A stretch of DNA of 64,000 nt, taken from contig NC_061794.1 in the NCBI RefSeq assembly GCF_021462225.1, positions 47,230,414 to 47,294,413 on the forward strand, read 5' to 3'. This document shows positions 1,776 to 52,700 of this stretch, in pieces. The position numbers and the translations under genes are program-made. Under the pieces are notes generated by a model. The model was not told the DNA's origin. It did not search any database and worked only from the letters and a program-made list of their open reading frames with translations. The stretch is from Girardinichthys multiradiatus (Eukaryota > Chordata > Actinopteri > Cyprinodontiformes > Goodeidae). Within the stretch, counting starts at the first letter, position 1; each line of letters begins with the position of its first letter.

Positions 1776-1960
1776 CTGCTTCAGACACTTTAAGTTCACT
1801 AAAGGTCCTCCTCACTGCTCTGAACATCTCCTCACGTTAGGAGCTCTCTGAAGATGCTTCATGAATAACTTTTATCTAACTGAGGTCTAAGAAAAACCTT
1901 AGAATGACGCTACTAAGAGCTACTTTTAGTCTTGGGATTCTTTGTGAATACAGGTCTCCC
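1776..1960. repeat. Fragment of a dispersed repeat shared with 42190-42340
   Basis: About 70 bases (GCTTCAGACACT, then TCCTCCTCACTGCTCTGAAC, then TTAGGAGCTC) are nearly the same as at 42195-42268, and both copies continue to a TTCTTTGTGAA string. The Rex1-like LINE ends within this copy. Element class is unknown; a MITE is possible. Confidence 0.5.
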
Positions 1961-2385
1961 TTCTCCAGGGAAAACATACATTTGTTGTTTCACATGGTTT
2001 GCCAGATGGATACAGGTTATCGTTTTTTGTGTCTTTGTTTTTGGCTGATAAGTGCAGTGGGTAGTGTTCCTTCACTCCCACAGAAACCATTTCTCTCTTT
2101 TCATTTATTGTACCGTTACCCTCTGCAGTCACATTTCCAGTAGGTAAACTTCTGTAACAATGCTAATACTGATGCTTGTAGTTTGCTTGCCTATTGGAGC
2201 TCGCCTCTCAGCTGGGCGACTTGTTTAGCTGATAAAACAATATAATACAAGTACAAAAATAGAGGAAGTAGAAATATAAAAATGTGTAAATTAAAAGTAT
2301 TGAAAATGCCAGGAAAAAAAGCCATCAGAGCAGCTAAAGGGAGAAGAGCAGAGTAGCAGCCCCCCCCCCATCAGGAACAAGGAGC
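1961..2385. other. Intergenic, no gene seen
   Basis: AT-rich sequence with a ten-base C run near 2360. Nothing else recognised. Confidence 0.5.
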
Positions 2386-2442
2386 TTTATTGTTGTGACA
2401 GAATGATTGATTCAAGTATGGTTGAAAATCACGGCTTTTATT
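2386..2442 (-). terminator. Candidate poly(A) signals of the first zinc-finger gene
   Basis: AATAAA on the minus strand occurs at 2437-2442 and again at 2386-2391, about 400-450 bases past the stop codon of the zinc-finger gene. Position and strand fit; use of either site is inferred. Confidence 0.4.
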
Positions 2443-2840
2443 TTCACAACCGTAAACTCAGGTGTCTGGATCAGAGCAGTTCATTTAAAATCCTTTTAAG
2501 TTATACCTTTCCACACAGTTCAGAGCGACTGTACTTCGCTTTTAAACCATAACCGCTATGAAACTTCTGATATGAAGGATGTATAGGTGTATTTTCACTA
2601 TTTCTAATGGCATTCTGGACCCCGCTGCTGTGCTGGGAGTTGACCTGAATCCTCGGACCAATGGCACTGAGGCAACAGCCGTTCTGCAGTAGGACCCTCT
2701 CATGCAACTGGATGTAAGCGATGTGAGCGGTCCGGTTTGGGACCCCTAATGGCCAGGGTATGATTGCTTTCAGGAGATTAGGGTCCTGGGAAAGCACTCT
2801 TCAGGGTCTCCCGGCTGGAATAAGCTTTTAATGTCTACAT

Positions 2841-4543
2841 CTAAACTGCTTCCTCTCCTATGTGGATTCTCATGTGTCTGTTTAAATGAGGCTTTTGGTA
2901 AAATCTTTTCCCGCAATTATGACAACCGTAGGGTTTTTCTCCTGTATGGATCCTCATGTGCTTGTTTAAGTTTGATTTGTGGTTAAATCTTTGTCTGCAC
3001 ACGTGACAACCAAACGGTTTGTCTCCTGTGTGGATCCTCATGTGTATTTTTAAAGTTGACTTTTGGTTAAAACTTTGTCCACAAACATCACAACCAAATG
3101 GTTTGTCACCAGTATGGATCCGCATGTGCTTGTTTAAACTTGACTTTTGGTTAAATCCTTTTCCACAAACATCACAACCAAAAGGTTTGTCTCCTGTGTG
3201 GATCCTCATGTGTTTGTTTACAGCCGACTTATCACTGAATCTTTGACCGCAAACGTCACAAACAAATGGTTTTTCTCCAGTGTGGATTCTGACATGTATG
3301 TTTAAATGTGACCTTCTGTTAAATCTTTGTTCACAAAAGAGGCAACCGAACGGTTTGTCTCCTGTGTGAATCCTGATGTGTTTGTTTAAATTAGCCTTCA
3401 GGCTAAATGTTTGTCCACAAACATCACATCTGAAAGGTTTGTCTCCTGTGTGGACTCTTGTGTGCATGTTTAAATCAGTCTTTCGACTGAATCTTTTCCC
3501 ACAGACATCACAACCAAATGGTTTCTCGTCTAAGTGGATTCTCTTGTGTTTGTTTAAATCAGATTTTTTGTTGAATCTTTGCTCACAATCATCACAGCTA
3601 AATGGTTTCTCCTCTGAGTGGATTCTCATGTGTAAATTTAGGCTTGACTTTTGGTTAAATCTCAGTTCACACGCATCACAACCAAACGGTTTCTCTCCTG
3701 TGTGGATTCTCCTGTGAATTTTTAGGTGAGACTTTTGGTTGAATCTTTGCCCACAGACATCACAGCCAAATGGTTTCTCTCCTGTGTGGATTCTCAGGTG
3801 TCGATTCAGAGAGGTTTTTAAGTTAAAACTTTTACCACAGTCATCACAGGTAAAACATTTTAAACCAGTCTGGACTTTCAGTGAGTCAACATTTTTCTTC
3901 TTCTTAAAACCTGCTTTAGCTGAACAGTTTGAGGATCTTCTTCTTGAATTGCCCGTCACGTGTCTCTGAAGAGAGCGCTTGTTAACAAATTGTTGACCAC
4001 ACTCAGAGCAGCTCAAAGACTTGGTGACAGCGTGTCCTCCGGACTCGGCAGCTCTGCTCTCCTTCCAGTCATTCTCACTGTCCTCAGTTTCAGACCCAGA
4101 GTCTGACAGGTGATCCATCTGAAGCTCAGGATGGTTCACATCATCCTCCTCTTCATCATCACTGACATCAGTCTCTGAAGAGTTGGAAGTGTCTCTGTGA
4201 GTATTTAGATCTGGGTTCCTGCTGGACTCTGCTCCTCTACAGTCCTCTTCATCAGTTTCTGCTTTCATCAGATCAGCTGAGCTGATGGGTGGAAGATCTC
4301 TGCCTTTTGTTTGGTGTTCATGAAGTTGTGAGAACAGAGGTTTATCTTCCTCGTCCTCACTTTTCACAACTACAGTTAGTGGAAACCTGGTGGGGTCCAT
4401 CTCCGCCTTCACACTGAGCTGCTCTTCCTCCAGACTGGTCCAAGGTTCCTCCTTGATGTGAAGAAGCTCTGTGTCCTGCTCGCCACCACCAGGACTCTGT
4501 TGTTCAGGAGCTTCTTCTTTAACCAAATGAATCTGCTGAACAT
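2841..4543 (-). CDS. C2H2 zinc-finger protein 1, exon 2 (main coding exon)
   Basis: This exon encodes almost all of a nuclear DNA-binding C2H2 zinc-finger protein. The 3' splice site is the CTGCAG ending at 4544; exon 1 (7729-7771) contributes 43 nt, giving a predicted 581-residue protein. The amino-terminal third is acidic and contains repeated psi-K-x-E motifs (LVKEE, HIKEE, SVKAE, VVKSE, LMKAE), a PLFSQLHEHQ block and a Ser/Asp/Glu-rich stretch. A first finger (CSECGQQF) has lost its last histidine (RHVTGNS). Twelve canonical fingers follow with TGEKPF or TGDKPF linkers. Helix residues at -1, 3 and 6 differ between fingers while the KS and N framework is constant. It is the most 3' of four tandem paralogs. 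Target DNA cannot be read from the sequence. A probable transcriptional repressor or regulator. Confidence 0.93.
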
Positions 4544-4719
4544 CTGCAGACGACACAAAGAGAAGACACACCTCGTTAAAGAATTAATTATTTTAGTAAA
4601 ACACAATTAGTGAAGGAATCCGATCATCATCATCATCAGTTAATGAGACTGAGAGCATTTACACGTTGATTAATGAAACAACTGAGCCATGAAGAATTTA
4701 TCTGCCAACTTCTGACCAG
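4544..4719. other. Intron 1 of zinc-finger gene 1, proximal part
   Basis: Intronic sequence with a short (ATC)n run near 4625. The intron spans 4544-7728, with GT at 7728-7727 and AG at 4545-4544 on the minus strand. Confidence 0.6.
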
Positions 4720-11678: not shown

Positions 11679-13405
11679 CTAAACAGTTCCCCCTCCTGTG
11701 TGGATTCTCATGTGTCTGTTTAAAGCTGACTTTTGGTTAAATCTCCAGCTACAAACATCACAAGCGAAGGGTTTGTCTCCTGTGTGGATTCTCATGTGTC
11801 TGTTTAAAGCTGACTTTTGGTTAAATCTCCGGCTACAAACATCACAAGCGAAGGGTTTGTCTCCTGTGTGGATTCTCATGTGTTTGTTTAAATTTGACTT
11901 TTGGGGAAATTTTTGACCACAAACATGACAACCAAATGGTTTGTCTCCTGTGTGAATCTTCATGTGTTTATTTAAGTTTGACTTCACGCTAAACCTTTGT
12001 CCACATAGACTACAACTAAAGGGTTTCTCGCCTGTGTGAATTACCATGTGTATGTTTAAAGCGGACTTATCACTACATCTTTGTCCGCAAGCAACACAAC
12101 TAAATTGTTGGTTTCCTGTGTGGATTCTGATGTGTTTGTTTAAATTTGATTTTTGGTGAAATTTATGTCCACAAATTTGACAGCTAAATGGTTTGACACC
12201 TGTGTGGATCCTCAGGTGCTTGTTTAAGTTGGACTTCACGCTAAACCTCTGTCCACAAGCATTGCAGAGAAAGGGTTTCTCTCCTGTGTGGGTTCTCATG
12301 TGCAAGTTAAAATGCGACTTGTCTGAAAACCTTTGTCCACAGGTTTCACAACCAAATGGTTTCTCACCAGTGTGGATTCTCATGTGTATGTCCAAATAGG
12401 ACTTTTGATGAAAACTTCGGCCACATACGTCACAAACAAATGCTTTTTCCATAGTGTGGATTCTCATGTGTCGGTTTAAAGCTGACCTATAACTAAAGGT
12501 TTGTCCACAAACATCACACCCAATTTGTATCTGCCCTGTGTGGATTTTCATGTGTCTCTTTAAAGCTGATTTATACCCAAACTTCTGCCCACAGTCATCA
12601 CAACCAAAAGGTTTCTCTCCTTTGTGGATTCTCATGTGGGTGTTTAAATATGATTTAAGGTTAAATCTTTGGCCACATACGTCACAAACAACTGCTTTAT
12701 CTCCATGGATTCTCATGTGTATGTTTAAATACTTCTGTGTGTTAAAACACTTTCCGCAGTCATCACAGCTCAAACATTTTAGACTTGTCAGGTCTTTCTC
12801 TCTGGAACCTTCCTTATTAACCAAACAGCTTGTAGATCTTTTTTTGGACCTGCCCCTTATGTGTCTCTGAAGGGAGCACTTGTTAACTAGTTTATCACAT
12901 TCAGAGCAGCTAGATTTGTTGACTTGCTCGGCCTTCCACTCATTCTCACGCTCTTCAGTTTTGGACCAAGAGTCTGACAAGTGTTCCAGCTGAGATTCTG
13001 GGTGGTTCAGATCATCCTCCTCCCTCTCTTGATCATCACTGACTTCAGTCTCTGATGAGCTAGCAAGTTCTGCTCGAGCACACAGATCTGGGTTCCTGCT
13101 GGACTCTGCTCCTCCACAGTCCTCATCAGTTTTTGCTTTCATCTGGTCAGTTGAGTTGCTGGGTGAAAGGTCTCTGTGTTCTAGTTGGTGCTGATGAACC
13201 TGTGAGAACAGAGGTTTATCTTCATCATCTTCACTCTTCACAAGAACTACAGTTAGTGGAAACCTGGTGCTAGTCTCCTCCTTCAGACTGGTCCAGAATT
13301 CCTCCCGTTTCTCCTTGATGTGAAGGTGCTCTTGGTCCTGCTGGTCATCACCAGGAATCTGCTCTTGAGGCACCTCTTCCTTTAGCACCAATGTTTGCAC
13401 GACAT
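11679..13405 (-). CDS. C2H2 zinc-finger protein 2, exon 2 (main coding exon)
   Basis: Second zinc-finger paralog. The acceptor CCTGCAG ends at 13406 and joins exon 1 (18122-18164) in frame as Leu-Asp-Val-Val, giving a predicted 589-residue protein. The acidic amino-terminal region keeps KEE, LVKSED, PLFSQVHQHQ and QMKAK blocks. The first finger (CSECDKLV) is degenerate and lacks its last histidine. Thirteen canonical fingers follow; several linkers are unusual (TGQIQIG, TMEKAFV, TGNQQFS). One finger has Cys in place of the core Phe (GQRCSDKSAL). The last two fingers are a near-perfect 84-nt tandem duplication. A nuclear DNA-binding regulator; target unknown. Start and splice agree with the three other paralogs. 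Confidence 0.92.
11701..11868 (-). repeat. 84-nt tandem duplication of one zinc finger
   Basis: Bases 11701-11784 and 11785-11868 are identical except one position (A at 11747, G at 11831). Each unit encodes one finger plus linker. The single change makes Trp versus Arg just before the conserved Arg-Phe of the finger (SWRF versus SRRF). Confidence 0.95.
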
Positions 13406-13529
13406 CTGCAGGCAACAGTGGAAGATACATTATAAACCATAAAAATATTCAGCAACCCTGTGGTTTAAATGAATAATAAACCAACTCTAAACTGAGAAGA
13501 ATGTAGCTGCCAGAATTCTATGATGGGGT
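13406..13529. other. Intron 1 of zinc-finger gene 2, proximal part
   Basis: The intron spans 13406-18121 and holds all repeats listed between those points. Confidence 0.6.
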
Positions 13530-14073: not shown

Positions 14074-15411
14074 TACAGGTCCTTCTCAAAAAATTAGCAT
14101 ATTGTGATAAAGTTCATTATTTTCCATAATGTCATGATGAAAATTTAACATTCATATATTTTAGATTCATTGCACACTAACTGAAATATTTCAGGTCTTT
14201 TATTGTCTTAATACGGATGATTTTGGCATACAGCTCATGAAAACCCAAAATTCCTATCTCACAAAATTAGCATATCATTAAAAGGGTCTCTAAACGAGCT
14301 ATGAACCTAATCATCTGAATCAACAAGTTAACTCTAAACACCTGCAAAAGATTCCTGAGGCCTTTAAAACTCCCAGCCTGGTTCATCACTCAAAACCCCA
14401 ATCATGGGTAAGACTGCCGACCTGACTGCTGTCCAGAAGGCCACTATTGACACCCTCAAGCAAGAGGGTAAGACACAGAAAGACATTTCTGAACGAATAG
14501 GCTGTTCCCAGAGTGCTGTATCAAGGCACCTCAGTGGGAAGTCTGTGGGAAGGAAAAAGTGTGGCAGAAAACGCTGCAAATTCTGCATGTCATTCAGAAA
14601 TCAAGGTGCCGGAGTCTGGAGGAAGACTGGGGAGAAGGAAATGCCAAAATGCCAGAAGTCCAGTGTCAAGTACCCACAGTCAGTGATGGTCTGGGGTGCC
14701 GTGTCAGCTGCTGGTGTTGGTCCACTGTGTTTTATCAAGGGCAGGGTCAATGCAGCTAGCTATCAGGAGATTTTGGAGCACTTCATGCTTCCATCTGCTG
14801 AAAAGCTTTATGGAGATGAAGATTTCATTTTTCAGCACGACCTGGCACCTGCTCACAGTGCCAAAACCACTGGTAAATGGTTTACTGACCATGGTATCAC
14901 TGTGCTCAATTGGCCTGCCAACTCTCCTGACCTGAACCCCATAGAGAATCTGTGGGATATTGTGAAGAGAACGTTGAGAGACTCAAGACCCAACACTCTG
15001 GATGAGCTAAAGGCCGCTATCGAAACATCCTGGGCCTCCATAAGACCTCAGCAGTGCCACAGGCTGATTGCCTCCATGCCACGCCGCATTGAAGCAGTCA
15101 TTTCTGCAAAAGGATTCCCGACCAAGTATTGAGTGCATAACTGTACATGATTATTTGAAGGTTGACGTTTTTTGTATTAAAAACACTTTTCTTTCATTGG
15201 TCGGAAGAAATATGCTAATTTTGTGAGATAGGAATTTTGGGTTTTCATGAGCTGTATGCCAAAATCATCCGTATTAAGACAATAAAAGACCTGAAATATT
15301 TCAGTTAGTGTGCAATGAATCTAAAATATATGAATGTTAAATTTTCATCATTACATTATAGAAAATAATGAACTTTATCACAATATGCTAATATTTTGAG
15401 AAGGACCTGTA
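14074..15411 (+). mobile_element. Tc1-like transposon, copy 1 (internally deleted)
   Basis: The element is bounded by TA dinucleotides (14074-14075 and 15410-15411) and starts CAGGTCCTTCTCAAAA. Terminal inverted repeats are about 200 bp each. AAAATTAGCATAT occurs near both the outer and the inner end of each repeat, the IR/DR layout of Tc1-type transposons. It is 234 bp (78 codons) shorter than the sister copy at 34108-35679. Confidence 0.93.
14404..15132 (+). pseudogene. Tc1 transposase missing its first catalytic Asp
   Basis: An open frame of 242 residues encodes a DD34E-type transposase of the Tc1/mariner superfamily. The amino-terminal paired-like helix-turn-helix region (MGKTADLTAVQKATIDTLKQ to GRKKCGRKRC) is intact, as are the second Asp (FQHDLAPAHS) and the Glu (SPDLNPIENLWD). 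Comparison with the copy at 34387-35349 shows that 78 codons are missing between RKRC and KFCMSF. These carried the second DNA-binding subdomain and the first catalytic Asp (FSDES). The deletion is exactly in frame, so the reading frame stays open, but the protein should be catalytically inactive. It could still bind element ends. Confidence 0.9.
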
Positions 15412-19629: not shown

Positions 19630-20784
19630 TCACACTCCAACCCTCTCTGCTATTTGTTTCCACTTTGATCCAGGCTCTGTATCATAAATAGAGATTATAT
19701 ATTGACCATATTCAGAATGTACAGGGGTTGGACAATGAAACAAACACCTGGTTTTACCTGGTGTAGGGCCTCCTTTTGCGGCCAATACAGCATCAATTCG
19801 TCTTGGGAATGACATATACAAGTCCTGCACAGTGGTCAGAGGGATTTTAAGCCATTCTTCTTGCAGGATAGTGGCCAGGTCACTACGTGATACTGGTGGA
19901 GGAAAACGTTTCCTGACTCGCTCCTCCAAAACACCCCAAAGTGGCTCAATAATATTTAGATCTGGTGACTGTGCAGGCCATGGGAGATGTTCAACTTCAC
20001 TTTCATGTTCATCAAACCAATCTTTCACCAGTCTTGCTGTGTGTATTGGTGCATTGTCATCCTGATACACGGCACCGCCTTCAGGATACAATGTTTGAAC
20101 CATTGGATGCACATGGTCCTCAAGAATGGTTCGGTAGTCCTTGGCAGTGACGCGCCCATCTAGCAAAAGTATTGGGCCAAGGGAATGCCATGATATGGCA
20201 GCCCAAACCATCACTGATCCACCCCCATGCTTCACTCTGGGCATGCAACAGTCTGGGTGGTACGCTTCTTTGGGGCTTCTCCACACCGTAACTCTCCTGG
20301 ATGTGGGGAAAACAGTAAAGGTGGACTCATCAGAGAACAATACATGTTTCACATTGTCCACAGCCCAAGATTTGCGTTCCTTGCACCATTGAAACCAACG
20401 TTTGGCATTGGCATGAGTGACCAAAGGTTTGGTTATAGCAGCCCGGCCGTGTATATTGACCCTGTGGAGCTCCCGACGGACAGTTCTGGTGGAAACAGGA
20501 GAGTTGAGGTGCACATTTAATTCTGCCGTGATTTGGGCAGCCGTGGTTTTATGTTTTTTGGATACAATTCGGGTTAGCACCCGAACATCCCTTTCAGACA
20601 GCTTCCTCTTGCGTCCACAGTTAATCCTGTTGGATGTGGTTGGTCCTTCTTGGTGGTATGCTGACATTACCCTGGATACCGTGGCTCTTGATACATCACA
20701 AAGACTTGCTGTCTTGGTCACAGATGCGCCAGCAAGACGTGCACCAACAATTTGTCCTCTTTTGAACTCTGGTATGTCACCCAT
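19630..20784 (-). CDS. Tc1-like transposase, intact open frame
   Basis: A 384-codon frame encodes a full DD34E transposase that cuts and pastes its own element through the flanking inverted repeats. Visible parts are an amino-terminal helix-turn-helix (MGDIPEFKRGQIVGARLAGA), a second DNA-binding subdomain with GRKRKLSERDVR, and the catalytic residues in FSDEST, YQDDNAPIHTA and SPDLNIIEPLW. No internal stop or frameshift is seen. The last residues (from about CLFHCPTPV on) translate the terminal repeat and then flanking host DNA, so the native stop has probably been lost or lies in the other frame. It lies in the intergenic space between zinc-finger genes 2 and 3. Activity is not shown by the sequence. 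Confidence 0.93.
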   Translation of the reverse strand: MGDIPEFKRGQIVGARLAGASVTKTASLCDVSRATVSRVMSAYHQEGPTTSNRINCGRKRKLSERDVRVLTRIVSKKHKTTAAQITAELNVHLNSPVSTRTVRRELHRVNIHGRAAITKPLVTHANAKRWFQWCKERKSWAVDNVKHVLFSDESTFTVFPTSRRVTVWRSPKEAYHPDCCMPRVKHGGGSVMVWAAISWHSLGPILLLDGRVTAKDYRTILEDHVHPMVQTLYPEGGAVYQDDNAPIHTARLVKDWFDEHESEVEHLPWPAQSPDLNIIEPLWGVLEERVRKRFPPPVSRSDLATILQEEWLKIPLTTVQDLYMSFPRRIDAVLAAKGGPTPGKTRCLFHCPTPVHSEYGQYIISIYDTEPGSKWKQIAERVGV

Positions 20785-20972
20785 AATGTTGTGTGCATTT
20801 CAATATTTTGAGCAAAACTGTGCTCTTACCCTGCTAATTGAACCTTCACACTCTGCTCTTACTGGTGCAATGTGCAATCAATGAAGACTGGCTACCAGGC
20901 TGGTCCAATTTAGCCATGAAACCTCCCACACTAAAATGACAGGTGTTTCTGTTTCATTGTCCAACCCCTGTA
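19720..20972 (-). mobile_element. Complete Tc1-like transposon
   Basis: Flanked by TA (19720-19721 and 20971-20972) with short inverted ends beginning CAGGGGTTGGACAATGAAAC. The match extends to about 30 bp with one indel. Total core length is about 1,249 bp, normal for Tc1-like elements. Different family from the 14 kb and 34 kb copies. Confidence 0.95.
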
Positions 20973-24004: not shown

Positions 24005-25917
24005 CTAAACTCTTTCTCCATCTGTGTGAATTTTTGTGTGTCTCATTAAATGTGACTTTAGGTTGAATCCTAGCCCACAAACATCACACCCAAATGGTTT
24101 GGCTCCAGTGTGAATTGTCATGTGTTTATTTAGGTGTGCTTTTTGGTTAAATTTTTGCCCACAAACATCACAACCAAAGGGTTTGTCACCTGTGTGGATT
24201 CTCAGGTGTCTTTTTAAAGCCGACTTCTGGTTAAATCGTCGTCCACAAACGTCACAGTCAAACGATTTTATTTCAGAGTGGATTTTCATGTGTTTCTTTA
24301 AAGCTGACTTTTGCATTAACCGTTGTCCACAAACATCACAAGCAAATGGTTTCTCTCCTGAATGGATTATCTTGTGCAAGTTTAAATGTGACTTTAGGTT
24401 AAATCTTTGCTCACAAACATCACATCTAAAAGGTTTCTCCCCTGTGTGGACTCTTACATGTTTGTTTAAATATGACTTTAGATTAAATCTTTGCCCACAG
24501 AAATCACAACTAAATGGTTTTCCTCCTGTGTGGATTTTGGCATGTTTGTTTAGATTTGATTTTTGGTTAAATCTTTGCCCACAAACATCACAACCAAATG
24601 GTTTCTCTCCTGTGTGAATTCGCATATGTATGTGTAAATATGACTTCAGATTAAATCTTTGACCACAAACATCACAACCAAAGGGTTTTCCCCCTGTGTG
24701 AATTCTCATGTGTTTGTTTAAATTTGAATTTTGGTTAAACCTTTGTCCACAAACTTCACAGCTAAACGGTTTCTCGCCTGTGTGGATTCTCATGTGCCTG
24801 CTTAGATGATTTTTCCAATGGAACGTTTTACCACAGTCATCACAGGTAAAACATTTAACACCAGCCTGGACTTTCTTCAGTACACGGATATTTTTCTTCC
24901 CTCTCTTCTTATTAACAGGCCTGCGTGAAGACCTTGCAGTGGAATGACATGTCATGTGTCTCTGAAGAGAGCGCTTGTTAACAAACTGTTGACCACACTC
25001 AAAGCAGCTCAAAGACTTGGTGACAGCGTGTCCTCCTGACTCGGCAGCTCTGCTCTCCTTCCAGCCATTCTCACTGTCCTCAGTTTCAGACCCAGAGTCT
25101 GAAAGCTGTTTCAGCTGAGAGTCCGGATGGTTCACATTATCAAAATCATCATTATCATCGTCGTCGTCGTCATCATCATCATCATCATCACTGACATCAG
25201 TCTCTGAAGAGTTGGAAGTGTCTTCAACAGTATTTAGATCCGGGTTCCTGCTGGACTCTGCTCCTCCACACTCCTCTTCTTTAGTTTCCGCTTTCATCTG
25301 GTCAGCTGAGCTGATGGGTGGAAGATCTCTGTCTCTTTTTTGGAGCTGATGAAGCTGTGAGAACAGTGGTTTTTCGTCATCATCCTCACTTTTCACAAGA
25401 ACTACAGTTAGTGGAAACTTGGTGGGATCGGTCTCCTCCTTCACATTGAGCTGCTCTCCCTCCAGACTGGTCCAAGGTTCCTCTTCTTCCTGCTTGATTT
25501 GGAGGAGCTCTAGATCCTGCTGGTCACCACCAGGATTCTTTTCTTTAGGAGCATCTTCTTTTTGAATGTCTTTATGAGTATTAAGATCTGTGTTCTCGCT
25601 GGATTCTGCTCCTCTAAAGTCCTCCTCATCAGTTTTTGTTTTCATCTGGTCAGCTGAGCTGCTGGGTGGAAGATCTCTGTCTTCTGTTTGGTGCTGATGA
25701 AGCACTGAGAACAGAGGTTTATCTTTATCACCACTCTTTATAAGAGCCACAGTTAGTGGAAACCTAATGGCATCAGTCTCCTTCTTCACATTGAGCGGTT
25801 TGTCCGGGTCCTCCTTGATGTGAAGCGCCTCTGGCTCGTGGTGGTCCACACGAAAACTCTGCTCTTCAAGAGCCTCTTCTTTAACCACCAGAATCTGCTG
25901 AAAATCTTCGGGTAACA
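24005..25917 (-). CDS. C2H2 zinc-finger protein 3, exon 2 (main coding exon)
   Basis: Third paralog and the longest. Two acceptors are possible and both keep frame: TTTCAG ending at 25918 (651 residues) or GAAG ending at 25906 (647 residues). The former has the better pyrimidine context. The acidic amino-terminal module is present twice in tandem. Each copy runs from a KEE/KED start through FPLTV, PLFS.LHQ, DLPP.SSADQMK and GAESS to DLNT. A run of Asp (about 12) follows, from a (GAT/GAC)n tract. The first finger (CFECGQQF...RHMTCH) is complete here, unlike in paralogs 1 and 2. Ten canonical fingers follow, several nearly the same (FNLKSYL occurs twice). Nuclear DNA-binding regulator; target unknown. 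Confidence 0.92.
25145..25190 (-). repeat. (ATC/GTC)n microsatellite coding a poly-Asp run
   Basis: Trinucleotide tract inside exon 2 of zinc-finger gene 3, read as GAT/GAC codons on the minus strand. The paralogs have only short DDEEED runs here. Confidence 0.85.
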
Positions 25918-26074
25918 CTGAAACACAATATGTACATTATAGACAACTGTAACATGTCAATATCTCAGTTCATTACAATTCAGCTTATTAATATAGTCAT
26001 GACTGATTCTGGCTTTGAGAAGACACAGCAGACTGGTCCAGGAAATCTTTCTATGCCAAACCTGTTAGAAGCAA
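25918..26074. other. Intron 1 of zinc-finger gene 3, proximal part
   Basis: The intron runs from 25918 to 30707. No feature in this stretch. Confidence 0.5.
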
Positions 26075-26189: not shown

Positions 26190-27082
26190 TAGGGATGGGT
26201 ATCTGTCACATTTGAACCAATACGGCATCAATGCCCGGTACCTGGGAATCAGTATCGGTATTCAACGGGACTAATTTTCAGTACTTTTGTGTGTGTTTAT
26301 GCGGTAATAAATGCTAATTCGTTTATAATAAAATCTCATATTTTTTACAAATTTATTTATCAATATATAATCTTTAATGAATATACCAAAACAACAATAG
26401 ATGTCGCTAACGGATGCAGACGTGCTAACGGATGCAGACGTGCTAACGGATGCAGGCGTGCTAATGGATGTAGACGTGCTAACGGATGCAGACGTGCTAA
26501 CGGATGCAGGCGTGCTAACGGATGCAGGCGTGCTAATGGATGCAGACGTGCTAACGGATGCAGGCGTGCTAACGGATGCAGGCGTGCTAATGGATGCAGA
26601 CATGCTAACGGATGCAGACGTGCTAACGGATGCAGGCATGCTAACGGTGCCAAATGCAGGAGTTGTAGCCGTGGATCTGCGGCAGGAAAAAATTGTGTCT
26701 CTTCAACCTTGAGAAAATCAGGTGCTGAACCTGGTGCTTCCTCAGACTGGCCTTGCACTTTGCATCACAAATATTGCAGCGAGCGTAACCTGCCTGGTAT
26801 TTTGAAAAGTGGAGCCGTACCTTCGAGCACTTTCTATTAGCAATGCTTTGTTGACAATACCAGCGGCTACTGACATCATTACGCTCTTGTCCGTGCAATG
26901 CTGTGTTGATGTACGGCGTGGAAAATCGTCCCACTCTTCCACTCCCTGAGCGTCACAATAATGTGTATAGGTACCAAAACAAAGTATGATTTTATGTGAA
27001 TCGGTACTCGGTAGTACCGATGGAATTCAGTTGGTACCTATAAAAGTACCCAATTCGGTACCTGCTGTTCCCCTGATCCCTA
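26190..27082. mobile_element. Non-autonomous hAT-type element with BED-finger remnant
   Basis: Ends are TAGGGATGGG and (inverted) TAGGGATCAG, sharing seven terminal bases. GGTACC-rich subterminal sequence lies at both ends (GCCCGGTACC, TTGGTACC, TTCGGTACC). On the minus strand at about 26690-26830 the translation SKVRLHFSKYQAGYARCNIC with RKHQVQH resembles the BED zinc finger of hAT transposases with its middle deleted. It interrupts a LINE. A clean 8-bp target duplication is not seen (CAGAAAAA versus CAGCATAT). Confidence 0.55.
26402..26645. repeat. 18-bp minisatellite, about 13-14 units
   Basis: Consensus GTGCTAACGGATGCAGAC. Units vary at three sites (ACGG/ATGG, CAGAC/CAGGC, CGTG/CATG) and the variants recur in groups of three or four units, suggesting higher-order copying. 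As 18 is divisible by 3 and the unit lacks stops in several frames, long spurious reading frames appear on both strands. Confidence 0.93.
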
Positions 27083-34107: not shown

Positions 34108-35679
34108 TACAGGTCCTTCTCAAAAAATTAGCATATTGTGATAAAGTTCATTATTTTCTATAATGTAATGATGAAAATTTAACATTCATATATTTTAGAT
34201 TCATTGCACACTAACTGAAATATTTCAGGTCTTTTATTGTCTTAATACGGATGATTTTGGCATACAGCTCATGAAAACCCAAAATTCCTATCTCACAAAA
34301 TTAGCATATTTCATCCGACCAATAAAATAAAAGTGTTTTTAATACAAAAAACGTCAACCTTCAAATAATCATGTACAGTTATGCACTCAATACTTGGTCG
34401 GGAATCCTTTTGCAGAAATGACTGCTTCAATGCGGCGTGGCATGGAGGCAATCAGCCTGTGGCACTGCTGAGGTCTTATGGAGGCCCAGGATGCTTCGAT
34501 AGCGGCCTTTAGCTCATCCAGAGTGTTGGGTCTTGAGTCTCTCAACGTTCTCTTCACAATATCGCACAGATTCTCTATGGGGTTCAGGTCAGGAGAGTTG
34601 GCAGGCCAATTGAGCACAGTGATACCATGGTCAGTAAACCATTTACCAGTGGTTTTGGCACTGTGAGCAGGTGCCAGGTCGTGCTGAAAAAGGAAATCTT
34701 AATCTCCATAAAGCTTTTCAGCAGATGGAAGCATGAAGTGCTCCAAAATCTCCTGATAGCTAGCTGCATTGACCCTGCCCTTGATAAAACACAGTGGACC
34801 AACACCAGCAGCTGACACGGCACCCCAGACCATCACTGACTGTGGGTACTTGACACTGGACTTCTGGCATTTTGGCATTTCCTTCTCCCCAGTCTTCCTC
34901 CAGACTCTGGCACCTTGATTTCCGAATGACATGCAGAATTTGCTTTCATCCGAAAAAAGTACTTTGGACCACTGAGCAACAGTCCAGTGCTGCTTCTCTG
35001 TAGCCCAGGTCTGGGGAATGCGGCACCTGTAGCCCATTTCCTGCACACGCCTGTGCACGGTGGCTCTGGATGTTTCTACTCCAGACTCAGTCCACTGCTT
35101 CCGCAGGTCCCCCAAGGTCTGGAATCGGCCCTTCTCCACAATCTTCCTCAGGGTCCGGTCACCTCTTCTCGTTGTGCAGCGTTTTCTGCCACACATTTTC
35201 CTTCCCACAGACTTCCCACTGAGGTGCCTTGATACAGCACTCTGGGAACAGCCTATTCGTTCAGAAATGTCTTTCTGTGTCTTACCCTCTTGCTTGAGGG
35301 TGTCAATAGTGGCCTTCTGGACAGCAGTCAGGTCGGCAGTCTTACCCATGATTGGGGTTTTGAGTGATGAACCAGGCTGGGAGTTTTAAAGGCCTCAGGA
35401 ATCTTTTGCAGGTGTTTAGAGTTAACTCGTTGATTCAGATGATTAGGTTCATAGCTCGTTTAGAGACCCTTTTAATGATATGCTAATTTTGTGAGATAGG
35501 AATTTTGGGTTTTCATGAGCTGTATGCCAAAATCATCTGTATTAAGACAATAAAAGACCTGAAATATTTCAGTTAGTGTGCAATGAATCTAAAATATATG
35601 AATGTTACATTTTCATCATGACATTATGGAAAATAATGAACTTTATCATAATATGCTAATGTTTTGAGAAGGACCTGTA
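34108..35679 (-). mobile_element. Tc1-like transposon, copy 2 (full length)
   Basis: Same family as 14074-15411. TA-bounded (34108-34109 and 35678-35679), with ends CAGGTCCTTCTCAAAA and about 200-bp inverted repeats with internal AAAATTAGCATAT direct repeats. Core 1,568 bp. Inserted next to the L1/Tx1 fragment. Confidence 0.95.
34387..35349 (-). pseudogene. Tc1 transposase with one nonsense codon
   Basis: The frame opens at 35349 (MGKTADLTAVQKATIDTLKQ) and runs 216 codons through both DNA-binding subdomains and the first catalytic Asp (FSDESKF). It then stops at KLYGD, where copy 1 has KLYGDED. The change is a GAA-to-TAA type substitution. After it the same frame continues with FQHDLAPAHS-equivalent residues and SPDLNPIENLCD to the natural stop at 34387. 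A single substitution therefore accounts for loss of the frame. ENLCD in place of ENLWD is a further change next to the catalytic Glu. Confidence 0.9.
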
Positions 35680-42989: not shown

Positions 42990-44371
42990 CTAAGCATTTT
43001 CCCCTCCTGTGTGGATTCTCATATGTCTGTTAAAATGTGACGTTTGGGTAAATGTTTCTCCACAAACAGCGCAGCCAAATGGTTTCTCTCCTGTGTGAAT
43101 TCTGGTGTGTGCGTTTAAATTAGACAGTTGGCGAAACGTCTGCCCACAAACATCACAACCGAAGGGTTTTTCTCCCGTGTGGATTCTCAAGTGTGTTTTT
43201 AAACTTCCTTTCAGGCTAAATTTCTTCCCGCAAGCATAACAACTAAAAGGCTTTTCTCCTGTGTGGATCCTAGCATGTTTTTTTAGGGTTGACTTATCAC
43301 TGAACCTTTGTCCACAAACATCACAACCAAACGGTTTATCACCTGTGTGGATTCTCATGTGTCTGTTCAAACTTGTCTTTTCCCCAAACCTTTGCCCACA
43401 GACATCACAACCTAAAGGTTTGTCTCCTGTGTGGATTCTTACGTGTTTGTTTAAATGGGACTTATCACTAAATCTTTGTTCACAAACATCACAACCAAAC
43501 GGTTTCTCTCCTGTGTGAATTCTGGTGTGAATGTTTAAATGTGACTTCTGGCTGAATCTTCGGCCACAAACATCACAACTGAACGGTTTCTCACCTGAGT
43601 GGATTCTCATGTGAACATTTATATTATTTTTCCAGTTAAAGCTTTTTCCACAGTCATCACAGGTAAAACATTTAACACTTGTTTGGACTTTCCTCAGCGA
43701 CTCAAGATTTTTCTTTTCTCTAACACTTTTCTTGTTAAGCAAACAGCCGACAGACCTTGCTGTTGAGTGACATGCCATGACGTGTCTCTGTTGGGAGCAC
43801 CTGTTAAACTGTTGACCACACTCAGAGCAGCCCAAAGACTTGGTGACAGCATGTCCTCCTGACTCGGCAGCTCTGCTCTCCTTCCAGTCATTCTCACTGT
43901 CCTCAGTTTCAGACCCAGAATCTGAAAGCTGTTTCAGCTGAGAGTCCGGAAGGTTCACATCATCCTCCTCTTCATCATCACTGACATCAGTTTCTGACGA
44001 GTTAGAAGTGTCTCTGTGAGTATTTAGATCTGGGTTCCTGCTGGACTCTGCTCTTCTACAGTCCTCTTCATCAGTTTCTGCTTTCATCTGCTCAGCTGAG
44101 CTGCTATTTGGAAGATATCCATCTTCTGTTTGGTGTTCATGAAGTTGTGAGAACAGAGGTTTATCTTCCTCATCCTCTTTCTTCACAAGAACTATGGTCA
44201 GTGGAAACCTGGTGGGATCCGTCTCCTCCTTCACATTGAGCTGCTCTTCCTCCAGGCTCCAGATTTCCTCCTGTTCCTTCTTGAAGTGAAGAAGCTCTGG
44301 GTCCTGCTGGTCCACACCAAGACTCTGTTCTGCAGGAGCTTCTTCTTTAACCAAAAGGCTCTTCTGAACAT
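42990..44371 (-). CDS. C2H2 zinc-finger protein 4, exon 2 (main coding exon)
   Basis: Fourth and shortest paralog, 474 residues after splicing. The acceptor CTGCAG ends at 44372 and joins exon 1 (55136-55178) in phase 1 as Leu-Asp-Val-Gln. The amino-terminal region is close to that of paralog 1 (LVKEEAPAEQS, NVKEETDPTRFPLT, PLFSQLHEHQTED, NSSETDVSDDEEEDDV), including the Ser/Glu block SDSGSETEDSEN. The first finger (CSECGQQFNRCSQQRHVMAC) has lost one residue before the Cys-Ser and has H-x4-H spacing. Eight canonical fingers follow with varied helices (SQKSHL, SDKSHL, GEKTSL, SDKSTL, SLKGSL, RQLSNL, TQTSHF). Its intron is the longest of the array because it took up a LINE, a P-like element and other repeats. 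Probable DNA-binding regulator. Confidence 0.92.
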
Positions 44372-44454
44372 CTGCAGATGACACAAAGACAACTTCAGTC
44401 AAAAAAACTGAAGAACTCAGCTGTCAGGCTTCAAACCAACATCAGTAAGTAGAA
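44372..44454. other. Intron 1 of zinc-finger gene 4, proximal end
   Basis: The intron spans 44372-55135, about 10.8 kb. Confidence 0.6.
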
Positions 44455-46214: not shown

Positions 46215-46742
46215 CCGACACCGCCGGTAAACCCCCCTCACCCAGACCCAGACCATAATAGAACTCTCCCATCTCCCCACTGAGCCCGCTTTTTGCTTTA
46301 CTGGATTCTGATAACATGAAAGGAGCTCTTAAGATCGGGACCCAAATGGCTCTGACATCTTCTCCATTCAACACCCCCCGTGGCCGAGGCCCTGCTACTA
46401 AACCAACATCTTCCAAATACCGCAGACCTCGACCACCTCCTAATCAGCGCCGTAGAAAGAGAGAGTTACGACACTCTTTGAACTCGCCAATAGGCGGTCA
46501 CGTGGTTCATGTAGCTCTCAATAGTTCCAAACATCTCAGCGGTGTCAGTCAGGTTGAACGGCTTCAGGCGCGACATAACGCAAAAAGCGGATTTTTTCAC
46601 TCTTTCCTGTGACTTTTGGTAATTAAATAATAATGAACTGATTACTGGCTACTAAATCATAATTTGAAAATCCAAACAGAAGTAACAATACCTAATATAA
46701 ATGCTCTTTCTGATCTCCTCCGCATGCTAGCACATGCTAGCC

Positions 46743-46802
46743 GAATACAGTTATAGCATCCCATGCTAGCATGTGCTAGCATGGGATGCTATAACTGTAT
46801 TC
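46743..46802. repeat. 60-bp perfect palindrome inside the P-like element
   Basis: Arms 46743-46771 and 46774-46802 are exact complements (29 bp) around a 2-base centre. ATGCTAGCA words continue just upstream (46720-46740). It could form a cruciform or hairpin. Confidence 0.95.
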
Positions 46803-47525
46803 TGTGCCAGCGGTTAAGAGCTCCGATCAAACTTACCTTCGGATCTACATCCTATACTACGTGGAAAGATCTATTGCTTATGTATTTAAAAAAAAAAAAA
46901 AAATCCAAATATTACAGATGGAAAATGAGCAGAATTAAAATTTTATAATTTTTAAATGAATGAGGAAAATATGTAGCTGTATGAAAATATGACTGAAGAC
47001 CTGGGATGAATTCTTAATTTTTGAAGAAGACATAATTATACTATTTTTGGCTGTCATGTGAACTGAGTACTTGTATCTATAACAGAGTTGATTGTGACCG
47101 TAGTCTGACAACTGTTGTAAAATTGTAATTCATTGACTAAAATGTTCATTTAATTCAAAATGTAGTTAAAATCATATTAGATGACAAAACAACTGAATTG
47201 TGCAAAAATAAATGACCAAACAATTTATTGTAAGATATGTAAAATGCAAAACTAGCTTTAATAAATAAGTACTTGCACTACCATTTATACAGTTTATTGA
47301 TTACATCTGCACCAATAAACTGTATCTGATCAAATCTGGACAAGGTAGAAATGTGCCCAAGTCCGAATGAGGGTTCATCCTTCTTGGCATCATTGGCAGC
47401 AGCTCCTTTTGAAGTCAGTCACCACATCTGCTGACCTCCCAGAAAACAATACAGAAACAATCAATATCATAGCTAGAAGGCAAAAAAAAAGTAAATGTGT
47501 TCCTCTGTAGGTTCAGCAGGTTACC

Positions 47526-48454
47526 ATGGTTGGGTGTGCTGCATTTGGATGCACCAATCGATCAGAGAAAGGAATCCATATGTACGGCTTCCCAAAAGAT
47601 CCTGAAAGAAGGAAAAAATGGTTGGTTCAAGTCAGTAGAAGCAACCTCACCATCACCAGAGGTCACAACAACAGGAAATTATGTGCTGTACGTTCAATCT
47701 GCACACTGCACTGGAAAATGCACAAGGGCCTAATGAAATGTGCAAGAAAATAAATAAATAAATCACTTTACAGGCACACTTTGAAAAAGGACAGTTTGTG
47801 AGGGTACAGTCAGGCCAAGTGAGACTGAGGGCTGATGCCGTTCCAACCCTTTTTCTTCATCAACCAGAACCAAAGACGAGGAAGGATCCTGCAATGAGAA
47901 GTCCAGCAGAACTTCCACTGCATGTTGATCCACTGACTAGTGATTACACATATAGTTCTAAAGTAAACTTTTACGTTTCAAATTTTTTACCTAATCTTTA
48001 TGCTAACAGTGCCATTATAATTTCAGAGATGAAGGAAGGAAGAAACAGAAATGAGGCAAGTGAGATGAGGGAAAGTGAAGGGGAAAAAGAATATGAAGAG
48101 GACAGGGACATGCCAGGAACTGATGCGCCAGGGTCAACAGGGCAAGACGTATGCATCAACAGGGAATACAATCAGGAAACCGAGGTGAAAAAGCTAAGGG
48201 AGGAATTAGAAAACCAAATAATTCACATAAGAACAATAGAAGGAGAACTTCACAGACAGAAGAAAATTAATGCAGTCCTACGAAAGAAAAAATTAACAAT
48301 GGAAAAGAACTTTGGCAGCATTTTCACAAAAGATCAAATGAAAGCTATTGGTATGAAGAGTAAGAGAGGCATTAGATGGAGCAAAAACACATTATTAAAT
48401 AACCACCAGATTCATCAGGCTGAGACTAAGAATAGCAGCAAAACATTTCTTTAA
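47526..48454 (+). CDS. THAP-domain protein of the P-like element (truncated transposase)
   Basis: Exon 1 is 47526-47687 (ATG, 54 codons). The donor GTACGT starts at 47688 and the acceptor TTTACAG ends at 47773, an 86-bp intron; exon 2 is 47774-48454. The spliced 280-residue product has a complete THAP zinc finger: C4, C9, C53 and H56 (KLCAAHF), with P23, W32, F57 and the AVPTLF box at 76-81. A Lys/Glu-rich coiled coil follows at about 188-232. Then comes FTKDQMKAIGMKSKRGIRWS, resembling the segment that follows the leucine zipper in P/THAP9 transposases. The frame ends soon after in unrelated-looking residues, and no RNase-H-like catalytic domain follows. A further 87-bp intron (47940-48026) is possible; it keeps frame either way. 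The THAP domain should bind DNA sequence-specifically in the nucleus. Confidence 0.85.
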
Positions 48455-49392
48455 TGAAAGAAAAAAAATTCTGGCCAATGCTGGACATCTTGGAAGTAAA
48501 AGCCAGGCGAAAAACACAAAGAAAAAACAATGTCAAACCTCATCTTGCACCCCAACAAACAAGCCCTAAGCAAACACCTTGACTGTTACCACGGACCTTT
48601 GATTGTTTAAAGGTATTTTTTGTTACTGTTCTACTGTGTATTGATGCTGATATGTTCCAGTAATAATTCTTAATTTATTTTTCTGTCTTGAGATAGATTC
48701 TAATATCTACTTCAACTTCATCCATGACTGTAAATACCAACTTTGTGAAGGTCTTAAAATGTTAAAATCATTTTGTTCAGACATCTTGATTCAGCTCTTA
48801 TTATTTTTAAGGACAGAAATTTTGTTACCTTTCTGGTGCTTTGTTTGCAACATGGTTCAGCAGTTCCTTTAAGCCATTCTCGTGTGGTTTACCTGGAAAA
48901 GAATAATAAAAAATGACTCATCTTCACAATCACGTTTAATGATAATGTCCCTATTTATGTTGCCGTCGTTGACAAACAATCTATAACTTTAACTAAATTA
49001 ACCATCCCAATATCACAGTATTTTTCAAGATGTGCTAGTTCAGTAGCTGGAAATACAATAAAAATTAGAAAATTATCAACGTTAAGAATGTAACCTGTAA
49101 TGGACATTTTAAAATGCTGAATCAGACACAATGAGATAAACTCGTCTAAAACCCGCCATGCTTACAATGAACTAGCTGCAGTTAAAATACAACAAGTGAG
49201 TTAACATGCTTAATTAACTAAACCTGGCGATATAAAATATTATTGCTAAACTGCGATTCAGAACAGTAAATTAAAGCCTCACAATATCAATATAATGTTG
49301 TATTTTCATCAACTTACCGTAAAAAATCCTTACGAAGCACCGAGAATGAACTACGTCCAATGCTGGAGCTGCTGGTGTTTGGACCTATTAGC
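48455..49392. other. 3' half of the P-like element, no coding domain left
   Basis: Just after the stop, a shifted frame gives FNERKKILANAGHLGSKSQ, possibly decayed transposase. The rest is AT-rich with no open frame. The catalytic region appears deleted. Confidence 0.5.
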
Positions 49393-49746
49393 AGCTCCAT
49401 GAACCACGTGACTTCCCTTCTTTCTATAGAGGTCAATGGGAGTGTCGTAACTCTCTCTTTCTACGGCGCTGCTCCTAATCTATCTCCTCCTAATCAGGAC
49501 CTTCAAATCACTTCTCTGTGATACAGTCTGGGCCCCAGTGGTAACTCTATCAGAAATGATCATGTCCAGGAAAAACTTGGGCCCCTAATAGGAGATAGTT
49601 GTAAAATCTCTGTGTTTATACGTGACAGAAAGAAGAAAGCTAAAAGGATAAGAGACAGTAATAAACAATCAAAAAAAGCCATAAACTGTCAGGTACAACC
49701 AGACACAGAGTTAATATAAACAACTAAGTCATATAAACTGACTTTA

Positions 49747-52700
49747 TTGAACATTAGATCTCTGTCAGGAAAATCATTTTTAATCATTGACTTCATTACT
49801 GACCACGATCTTGATGTTATGTTTTTAACAGAAACATGGTTACATGAATTTAATGAAGCTCCCATTCTGATAGAGGCGACGCCTCCAAACTACTATTTTA
49901 TTTGTGAGAGCAGACAGCAAAGAAAAGGTGGAGGGGTGACTTTGTTTAAAGATTTATTAGAGTGTAAAAAAGTATTTCTGGGCAAATTTGACTCTTTTGA
50001 ATATTTGGGTCTCCGGGTAAAGAGCCCGGTCCGAACCATGTTCTTGAATATTTACAGGCCTCCTAAGTCCAAAACAAACTTTATCAATGATTTTAATGAA
50101 CTTTTATCTGTAAAAAGTGTTGATTATGACTTCTCCACGCACTTCTCCATGGAGAAGTGCTCCACCAGTCAGAAGTGGAAAAAAGGAGTGTTGAAAAGCT
50201 GAAGGCAGGTGGAGAAAGACTGGACTCCAGGTTCACTATATTATCTATAAAGAGAGATTATACAGATATAACCTACAACTGAAAAATGCAAGATAATTTT
50301 TCTTTTCTGAGATCATCAGTAAAAACATTAACAATACTGGTCCATTATTTGCCACGGTCGACCGGTTAACAAACCCTCCTGTAACTGTAGCATCTGAACT
50401 CCACTCTACCAGGACCTGTAATGAATTTGTTAACTTCTTCACTGAAAAAATCCAATAGATCAGAGGGGCAGTCAGAACATCCACATCAACTCCAGGACCA
50501 ATGTTGTCTCCAACTAGAACTGATTTTGACAAAATTTCCCAATTTCACCAAATAAACTATAAAAACTTAGAAGAAATCGTGCAGCAACTAAGCTCTTCTT
50601 CCTGCTGTCTCGATGTTTTACCTACAGCTTTCCTTCAGAAAGCTTTGCCTGTAATAACATCTGATTTAACACAAATAATAAACACGTCCCTTTTGTCAGG
50701 TGTTTTCCTCCAGGCCCTAAAAACAGCAATTATCAAACCTCTATTGAAAAAGAGCAACTTGGACAAGCTGCTACTACAGAACTACAGGCCTATATCAAAC
50801 CTCCTCTTCATCAGTAAGATTATTGAAAAATCTGTATTTCAACAGTTAAACAACTTCCTAACAACGACCAACCGCTTCGATGTCTTCCAGTCAGGCTTCC
50901 TGTTCACCACAGTACAGAGACTGCTCTTGTCAAGGTGTTCAATGACATCCGTATAAATGCAGACTGTGGAAGAACCACAGTGCTGGTATTATTGGACCTT
51001 AGTGCAGCATTCAACACTGTTGATCACTCCATTTTATTAGAGCGCCTGGAAAACCGGGTCGGCCTTTCTGGTACAGCACTCAACTGGTTTAAATCCTACT
51101 TGAAGGACAGGGACTTTTTTGTGTCAGTAGGTAACTTTACATCAGAGACCACAAAAATCACATGTGGCGTTCCCCAAGGGTCCATCTTAAGGCCCCTCCT
51201 ATTCAATATCTACATGCTCCCCTAACTCAGATTATAATAAACAACTACGTAAGTTATTATAACTATGCAGACGACACACAGCTATACGATACGATGTCAC
51301 CAGGTGACCATGAACCCATTCAAACGCTGGGTAAAAGCTGCTGGAGGACATAACGACCACTTTCACCCTCTTCGCTACATTCTCACACTACTCTCCAATT
51401 TTGCATTGTTTGCTGTTATTTCAGTTTTTAACCTTGTTCTCTCTTTTCTCTTCCTAGAAGCTACACCTGGCCTGACTCTGTGTCTACCTGTGACACCTTT
51501 CTGGAGAGGGGAATCGTCCGAGCTGCTGCTGGCAACAACTTAATGCTCACCTTCTACAGATGATCCACATGGCCCTGTCTTTTAGTGTTTAACCCTTTCT
51601 CTCTCCTAGACATGGCTACTGAGTGAGCTTCTATTGTGACTAACTCTATGTTCTCTCTTTCAGACTCTAACCTTGAAAACTGGCTCAGAGTTTATCTGTT
51701 CTTTCTTTCTAGATGAAACAACTAAAGGAGCTACATCCATTAACATTTACTTTTCCTTCCCATAGAAAGTACTCCTGGATCAGTGCTTCTGTGTTCTCTT
51801 TGTGTCTCTGCTCTGTTCTCTCTAACCTCCAGTCGGTCGTGGCAGATGGCCGCTCACACTGAGCCTGGTTCTGGTTCTGCTGGAGGTTTCTTCCTGTTAA
51901 AAGGGAGTTTTTCCTCTCCACTGTCTCTACATGCTGCAAGTCACTGACTGGATGCAATCTGCTGGGTTTCCTTAGATAGAAAAACATTTTATCCAATTTG
52001 AATAAATAACTAACTCCGACTGCATTGTTCAATTGTTAGGATTAATTGGAATGTATGAACCTGACTGTTGTGAAGAGCCTTGAGACAACATGTGTTGTGA
52101 ATTGGCGCTATATAAATAAAACTGAATTGAATTGAAAATAAATCAATGCATGGATGGGCCAAAATTTTCTTCAGCTGAATCAAAACAAAACTGAAGTAAT
52201 AATCTTTGGACCAAAGGAAGAGCGTTTAAAAGTTAGCACACAGCTTCATTTAATACAGCTAGAAACCACCAGTCAGGCTGGAAACCTGGGTGTAGTGATG
52301 GACTCAGACCTGAACCTTCAGAGGAACATAAAGACAGTAACAAGGTCGGCCTTCTATCACCTAAAGAACATCTCCAGGATTAAAGGACTAATGTCTCAGC
52401 AGGACCTTGAAAAACTAATTCATGCGTTCATCTTTAGTAGAATTGATTACTGCAACGGTGTCTTCACAGGTCTGCCTAAAAAGTGGATCAGACAGATGCA
52501 GTTGATCCAGAACACTGCTGCCCACGTCCTCACTAGAACTAAGAAAGTGGAGCACATCGGCCCGGTTCTAAAGTCCCTACACTGGTTCCCTGTAGCTCAG
52601 AGAATAGACTTTAAAATACTTCTGTTAGTCTATAAATCACTGAATGGCTTAGCACCAAAATACATTACAGACTTGTTGTCAGTGTATCAACCACCCAGAC

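Follow-up and report, generated by a model that had tools for sequence, protein, structure and literature searches.

The locus considered here raises the question of whether a fish genome has preserved a P-element-like transposon with its ends, insertion site and gene together, and, if so, how the unit arose and whether its gene could still act. The window, that is, the whole 64,000-nucleotide stretch of Girardinichthys multiradiatus DNA that was analysed, contains a unit that we assign, with a probability of roughly 0.92 for identity and deletion origin taken together, to a P-element family as an internally deleted copy.

The unit spans positions 46445–49471 of the window (3,027 bp), and its features are collected in Table 1. 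The terminal inverted repeats are complementary at 32 of 32 positions and are separated by 2,963 bp, with a 37-bp inner inverted repeat of 86% located inside them. A search with the outermost 21 bases, at up to three mismatches, hit the window solely at the two ends of the unit and none of 100 shuffles. The sequence CTCCTAAT flanks the unit on both sides as an exact 8-bp target-site duplication. A 31-base pattern made of the joined flanks with one CTCCTAAT had 659 matches in the host genome (320 forward and 339 reverse, with at most three mismatches), compared with zero on both strands for the reversed pattern under the same threshold; an abundant repeat was thus interrupted by the insertion, and 8 bp of it were duplicated. 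These empty sites, together with the endonuclease domain PF03372 in the frame behind the insertion (49720–50199; E 1.3e-05, score 25.5 bits, cut-off 24.5), support a LINE-like nature for the interrupted repeat; two further frames beside the insertion had no family match in Pfam. The initial annotation had described perfect 32-bp terminal repeats, an exact 8-bp duplication, a subterminal inverted repeat and an interrupted LINE, and each was recovered here. The ends, 32 bp long and starting CAGCG, have the form of the P superfamily, with terminal repeats of about 30 bp and 5'-YARNG at the ends (a rule for P elements as cited in PMC2820524), and terminal repeats of 27–31 bp are given for Anopheles P elements (PMC1562414). 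Within the unit, the perfect hairpin has a 2-base loop and adjoins a second nested repeat (46723–46741); in other copies it is only partly there, as a self-complementary stretch.

Table 1. Features of the P-element unit and its insertion site, in window coordinates.
Feature	Position	Strand	Basis or remark
Left target-site duplication, CTCCTAAT	46437..46444	.	Flank reading and empty sites
Left 32-bp terminal inverted repeat, starts CAGCG	46445..46476	+	Repeat pairing and end search
Inner inverted repeat, left arm	46497..46533	+	Contains CACGTGGTTCATG, 22 bp off the terminal repeat
Perfect 29-bp hairpin	46743..46802	.	Present in part in other copies
Predicted exon 1, coding for the first part of the THAP domain	47526..47687	+	Length 162 bp in 13 of the 14 distinct copies whose borders were all recognised
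Predicted intron 1, 86 bp, donor GTACGT	47688..47773	+	GTAAGT in the other 13 of 14 copies
Predicted exon 2, remainder of THAP domain	47774..47962	+	189 bp in 10 of 14 copies
Possible intron 2, 66 bp	47963..48028	+	84 or 87 bp in the other 13 copies; frame also open if retained
Predicted exon 3: zipper-like region, helix-turn-helix start, short new tail, stop	48029..48454	+
Stretch corresponding to the part of L078 that aligns with the zipper of Drosophila P	48182..48292	+	Alignment of L078 with 6p5a
Internal deletion junction	48394..48397	.	1,750 bp gone relative to L078; 2-bp filler, in an A-run
Inner inverted repeat, right arm	49376..49412	-	Motif lies 29 bp from its terminal repeat, against 36 bp in most measured copies
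Right 32-bp terminal inverted repeat	49440..49471	-
Right target-site duplication, CTCCTAAT	49472..49479	.	Flank reading and empty sites

The host genome (1.15 Gb in 72 contigs) was searched with the 21-base end, which yielded 244 matches at up to three mismatches (124 forward, 120 reverse), whereas the reversed control gave 22 (13 and 9). From about 100 of the 244 end matches, which were listed, 17 further facing-end pairs were taken; two more paired copies, L062 and L078, came from later searches. Across the 20 distinct paired copies, the window copy included, the 8-bp duplication is exact in 15, off by one base in four (L041, L042, L046 and L047) and off by two in one (L040), which together with the empty sites agrees with the 8-bp duplication of the P superfamily. 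Past mobility, and past mobility only, is shown by these duplications and empty sites. The many copies with 8-bp duplications that the initial annotation had proposed to seek were thus present, and the two outcomes it had named as speaking against a P element, namely ends lacking such duplications or a non-P transposase in full-length relatives, did not appear in these analyses. Target preference was assessed on 33 8-mers, comprising the 15 exact pairs (two of which are GGTGTACC) and 18 single ends, with L053 and L059 set aside as duplicate loci, along with five imperfect pairs and 12 single-end loci of paired copies. The set leans palindromic (G1, T2, A7, C8), with a mean of 1.58 out of four complementary pairs versus 1.0 after shuffling, a value as high in three of 20,000 shuffles; the 15 exact pairs alone averaged 1.6 versus 1.01 (P 0.009). 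The fly P target motif is given as GTCCGGAC (PMC3276498). The window copy's own site fits the target motif in part. The copies are of recent age, with pairwise dS values against L078 of 0.008 to 0.062 for 14 other copies. A further copy, L031, is 8.9 kb long and has other transposons nested inside, with a 346-codon open frame and a second frame that we take to be Tc1-like and LINE-like, respectively; its outer 8-bp duplication, GGTGTACC, is intact.

Uninterrupted copies that retain both ends reach about 4.8 kb at most, and L078 (also recorded as L050, on contig C15; 4,769 bp, both ends, duplication ATCTGGTC) served for comparison. The window copy lacks positions 1939–3688 of L078 (1,750 bp) and is otherwise collinear with it. 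When the genome was searched with a 130-base query covering the junction, 85 candidates were returned at first and 40 matches were scored, of which a single one, the window copy itself, spans the junction, while 37 contain the right part alone and two the left part alone; in 80 fetched loci, many of them overlapping or without the region, the junction matched once. The deletion has therefore not been multiplied in the host genome, and an amplified deletion class for the window copy was not supported, the junction being private to it. L034 carries a deletion from 1940 to 3344 (L078 numbering), with almost the same left point, and retains the THAP exons; L037 is deleted from 1832 to 3257, starting roughly where the zipper region ends, and retains exon 1 and part of exon 2. 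The THAP and zipper parts were thus spared by separate deletions in the window copy and L034, with L037 perhaps a third case. Four other copies (L035, L040, L046 and L047) have in common a larger deletion, 969 to 3887, which is filled with other sequence and takes out the THAP gene entirely, so that they resemble a non-coding class that has been amplified. At their ends, the short copies mostly carry CAGCGCCATAG, not CAGCGCCGTAG. In flies, full P copies are described alongside internally deleted ones, of which some are mobilised and others repress (PMC7776569, PMC12393704). The window copy likely entered the LINE by cut-and-paste, with transposase that longer copies would have supplied in trans, and the 2-bp filler at the A-run suggests that its deletion may stem from failed copying repair after an excision.

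The gene left by the deletion was examined in unspliced and predicted spliced form. In the unspliced frame, the THAP family PF05485 was matched at E 3.3e-10 over model positions 1–59 of 87, and removal of the predicted 86-bp intron gave a complete match (E 7.2e-18, model positions 1–87). The exon layout is shared among 14 distinct copies, although splice borders were sought with patterns allowing three or four mismatches, so that part of this exon likeness is built in. The predicted spliced product has 258 residues, with the whole THAP domain at its N-terminus, as in the P superfamily, followed by the zipper-like region, a short tail and a stop. The window zipper region matched no Pfam family above cut-off (Spc29 E 0.022, Fez1 E 0.75), and the exon 2–3 frame searched against solved structures gave nothing of note (one match, E 2.9); the zipper reading of the window copy derives from the alignment of L078 with the fly P transposase. 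The THAP-domain protein that the initial annotation had proposed was thus borne out in its domain, but it requires splicing, and its gene ends just past the deletion junction.

Whether such a protein works is a separate matter, and it is rather probable that the window copy, with the same origin, is a plain dead deletion derivative with a leftover THAP frame and no working protein. The frame is without clear constraint, since dN/dS against five copies ranges from 0.42 to 0.94, each comparison resting on 5 to 8.5 silent changes (other copy pairs reach 2.35), which on so few changes gives no sign of selection keeping the predicted protein. The deletion, as noted, is private, and the intron 1 donor, GTACGT, is weaker than GTAAGT. 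Against a dead derivative, 258 codons stay open after predicted splicing with the THAP domain complete, and spliced open frames longer than this occur in four of the 14 distinct copies with all borders recognised, namely L055 (422 codons, the longest), L034 (390), L057 (280) and L031 (263). Splicing might instead yield a 258-residue THAP-plus-zipper protein acting as a KP-type repressor; in our analysis, such action is doubtful because clear constraint is missing and the deletion is private, unlike the spread KP of flies.

The superfamily is evident from the longer copies, in which the Pfam families RNaseH_N and GTP-binding insertion (GBD) were found above cut-off. RNaseH_C of the P transposase type exceeded its threshold in L032 and fell slightly short of it in L033, L049 and L078. 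An open frame of 782 codons in L078 aligned with residues 95–561 of the Drosophila P transposase (6p5a; E 2.3e-32), from the zipper to the RNase H. Counted along the alignments, a D, a D and an E in the longer copies face fly D230, D303 and E531, which are the catalytic residues. The longer copies thus hold what distinguishes the P superfamily, an RNase H split by a GTP-binding insertion and carrying DDE residues. A search with a 426-aa core query returned 108 matches in the host genome (98 of 170 candidates scored), and two of the 30 loci fetched had an open frame of more than 500 codons on the match strand. L049 (C6:3532815-3533933 and flanks) has an 880-codon open frame and keeps a 5' end (L079), but lacks both THAP exon 1 and the 3' end. 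Domestication of L049 was considered and rejected, because its dN/dS (0.55 versus L078, 0.45 to 0.85 versus 13 others) resembles that of L078 itself (0.47 to 1.26) and so bears no mark of L049 being kept. The predicted spliced frame of L078 stops after 73 codons because exon 2 is out of frame. The longer copy with an RNase-H-like and GTP-binding transposase that had been proposed for a search was accordingly found, and P-element identity, as first claimed, is supported by the duplicated copies and by this transposase. Of the suggested autonomous partner, the P transposase coding stands, but none of the copies examined has a transposase gene that is intact throughout.

The same domains decide against a hAT element that acquired a THAP domain. 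hAT elements often have CAG ends. The duplication length fails to separate hAT from P, with 8 bp reported for the hAT element hobo (PMC3276498), and a Leuciscus homologue (P0005) is labelled PF05699 (hAT) beside P domains, a label that probably reflects a fused gene prediction. This explanation was rejected and retains almost no probability, given that the longer copies have an RNase H divided by a GTP-binding insertion of the P type, that L078 matches P transposase, and that no hAT domain was listed for the longer-copy frames (Pfam, E up to 0.1 in one scan and 0.01 in another). Host-derived THAP genes are common in vertebrates, but a domesticated host gene next to chance repeats is contradicted by the perfect ends, the duplication, the empty sites and the many dispersed copies and end matches, and was dismissed as barely credible.

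The P-element family also has a constant end architecture. The motif CACGTGGTTCATG starts at base 55 of the gene-left end and base 69 of the gene-right end in nine of the 11 copies measurable at both, which leaves gaps to the terminal repeat of 22 bp on one side and 36 bp on the other. The exceptions are the window copy (55 and 62) and L062 (53 and 69). Nine of the 20 copies had a recognisable motif at just one end; its start was base 55 or 69 in seven of these, base 41 in L043 and base 48 in L047. The end asymmetry is fixed, as in the fly, where gaps of 9 and 21 bp have been likened to the 12/23 spacing of V(D)J signals (PMC7776569). Since all copies descend from one another's common source, this constant spacing represents conservation within one family and not independent origin. 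A P control plan older than the split between flies and fish would comprise unequal end spacing in which a short end must pair with a long one, recurrent repressors from deletions sparing THAP and zipper, and the window copy as a young vertebrate KP; we regard this as an unlikely reading, weakened because the window deletion is private.

Elsewhere in the window, three frames (19630–20799, with 389 codons open, 14368–15132 and 34699–35385) presumably encode Tc1-like transposases, judging by motifs. Four long minus-strand frames (2841–4583, 11679–13448, 24005–25936 and 42990–44423) form a C2H2 zinc-finger cluster; the first 330 residues of frame 24005–25936 had a Characodon lateralis protein as best match (92% over 95%), with other goodeids and killifishes ranking below. 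The open frame 26193–26840 is mostly a short tandem repeat of NGCRRA units.

Vertebrate relatives had been held to be few, a view that does not stand: homologues were found in at least ten other named fish among the matches listed, in addition to Pdre2 (PMC10983969) and Izanagi (PMC2820524), so fish P elements are not rare. Fifty-six transposases were placed in a midpoint-rooted tree (that of the host together with 55 drawn from 197 homologues, 120 of which were listed; zebrafish and human THAP9 are not among them), in which the host family and all named fish rows form one group (100/100), with the host near Paramisgurnus and Gymnothorax and the arthropod rows apart. P elements are already known in zebrafish, medaka and other fish; what is new here is the family, fly-like ends in a vertebrate and the KP-like derivative. 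No goodeid P element is named in the titles or abstract openings of the literature searched in one library. With its fly-like ends, many recent copies, transposase frames that are almost open and internally deleted derivatives in which the DNA-binding part survives, the family would make it possible to ask in a vertebrate whether pairing of the ends depends on their unequal spacing and whether shortened copies repress the elements they came from.

Among known systems, P0001 of Paramisgurnus dabryanus ('Transposable element P transposase'), with 75% identity over 87% of the 426-aa core query, belongs to the same supported fish clade; it is a deposited protein in which no THAP domain was found. 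Medaka Izanagi is described as non-autonomous (PMC2820524); it is bounded by terminal repeats of 27 bp, duplicates 8 bp of its target and retains THAP coding remnants spread over three putative exons. Unlike the window copy, it has the end CAATGAGTTATATC..., a degenerate THAP and, as reported there, no transposase gene in the element (PMC2820524), and the window ends differ from its 27-bp CAATGAGTTATATCACTAGAGGAGACA. Zebrafish Pdre2 (zfTHAP9) resembles our family as a vertebrate P element with 8-bp duplications, a THAP transposase and internally deleted copies (PMC10983969). The window ends differ from its 13-bp terminal repeats, CATACCTGTCAAC, which are accompanied by distant 12-bp inner repeats (PMC10983969), and these short ends and far-off inner repeats make its plan different from that of the fly element. 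Fly KP lacks positions 809–2561 and encodes a 207-residue repressor with 199 residues from the transposase (PMC4938643). A KP-type repressor element is defined by an interrupted transposase and a retained DNA-binding domain (PMC12393704), and the window copy has both in predicted spliced form, with the zipper region kept. The two are alike in layout, known here from sequence prediction, in that an internal deletion spares THAP and zipper. KP is widespread and has shown repressor activity, whereas the window protein is predicted and its deletion private; spread as a deletion class of its own, a KP trait outside that definition, is contradicted by the one in 40 scored matches. The window copy is at most KP-like in working and is not classed as KP. 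The family as a whole departs from Drosophila melanogaster P in end sequence, inner spacing (22/36 versus 9/21) and length (4.77 kb versus 2.9 kb), and shares with it 8-bp duplications, terminal repeats of 31–32 bp, unequally spaced inner sites, a palindromic target preference with a GT start and an AC end, and a protein plan of THAP, zipper and RNase H with a GTP-binding insertion.
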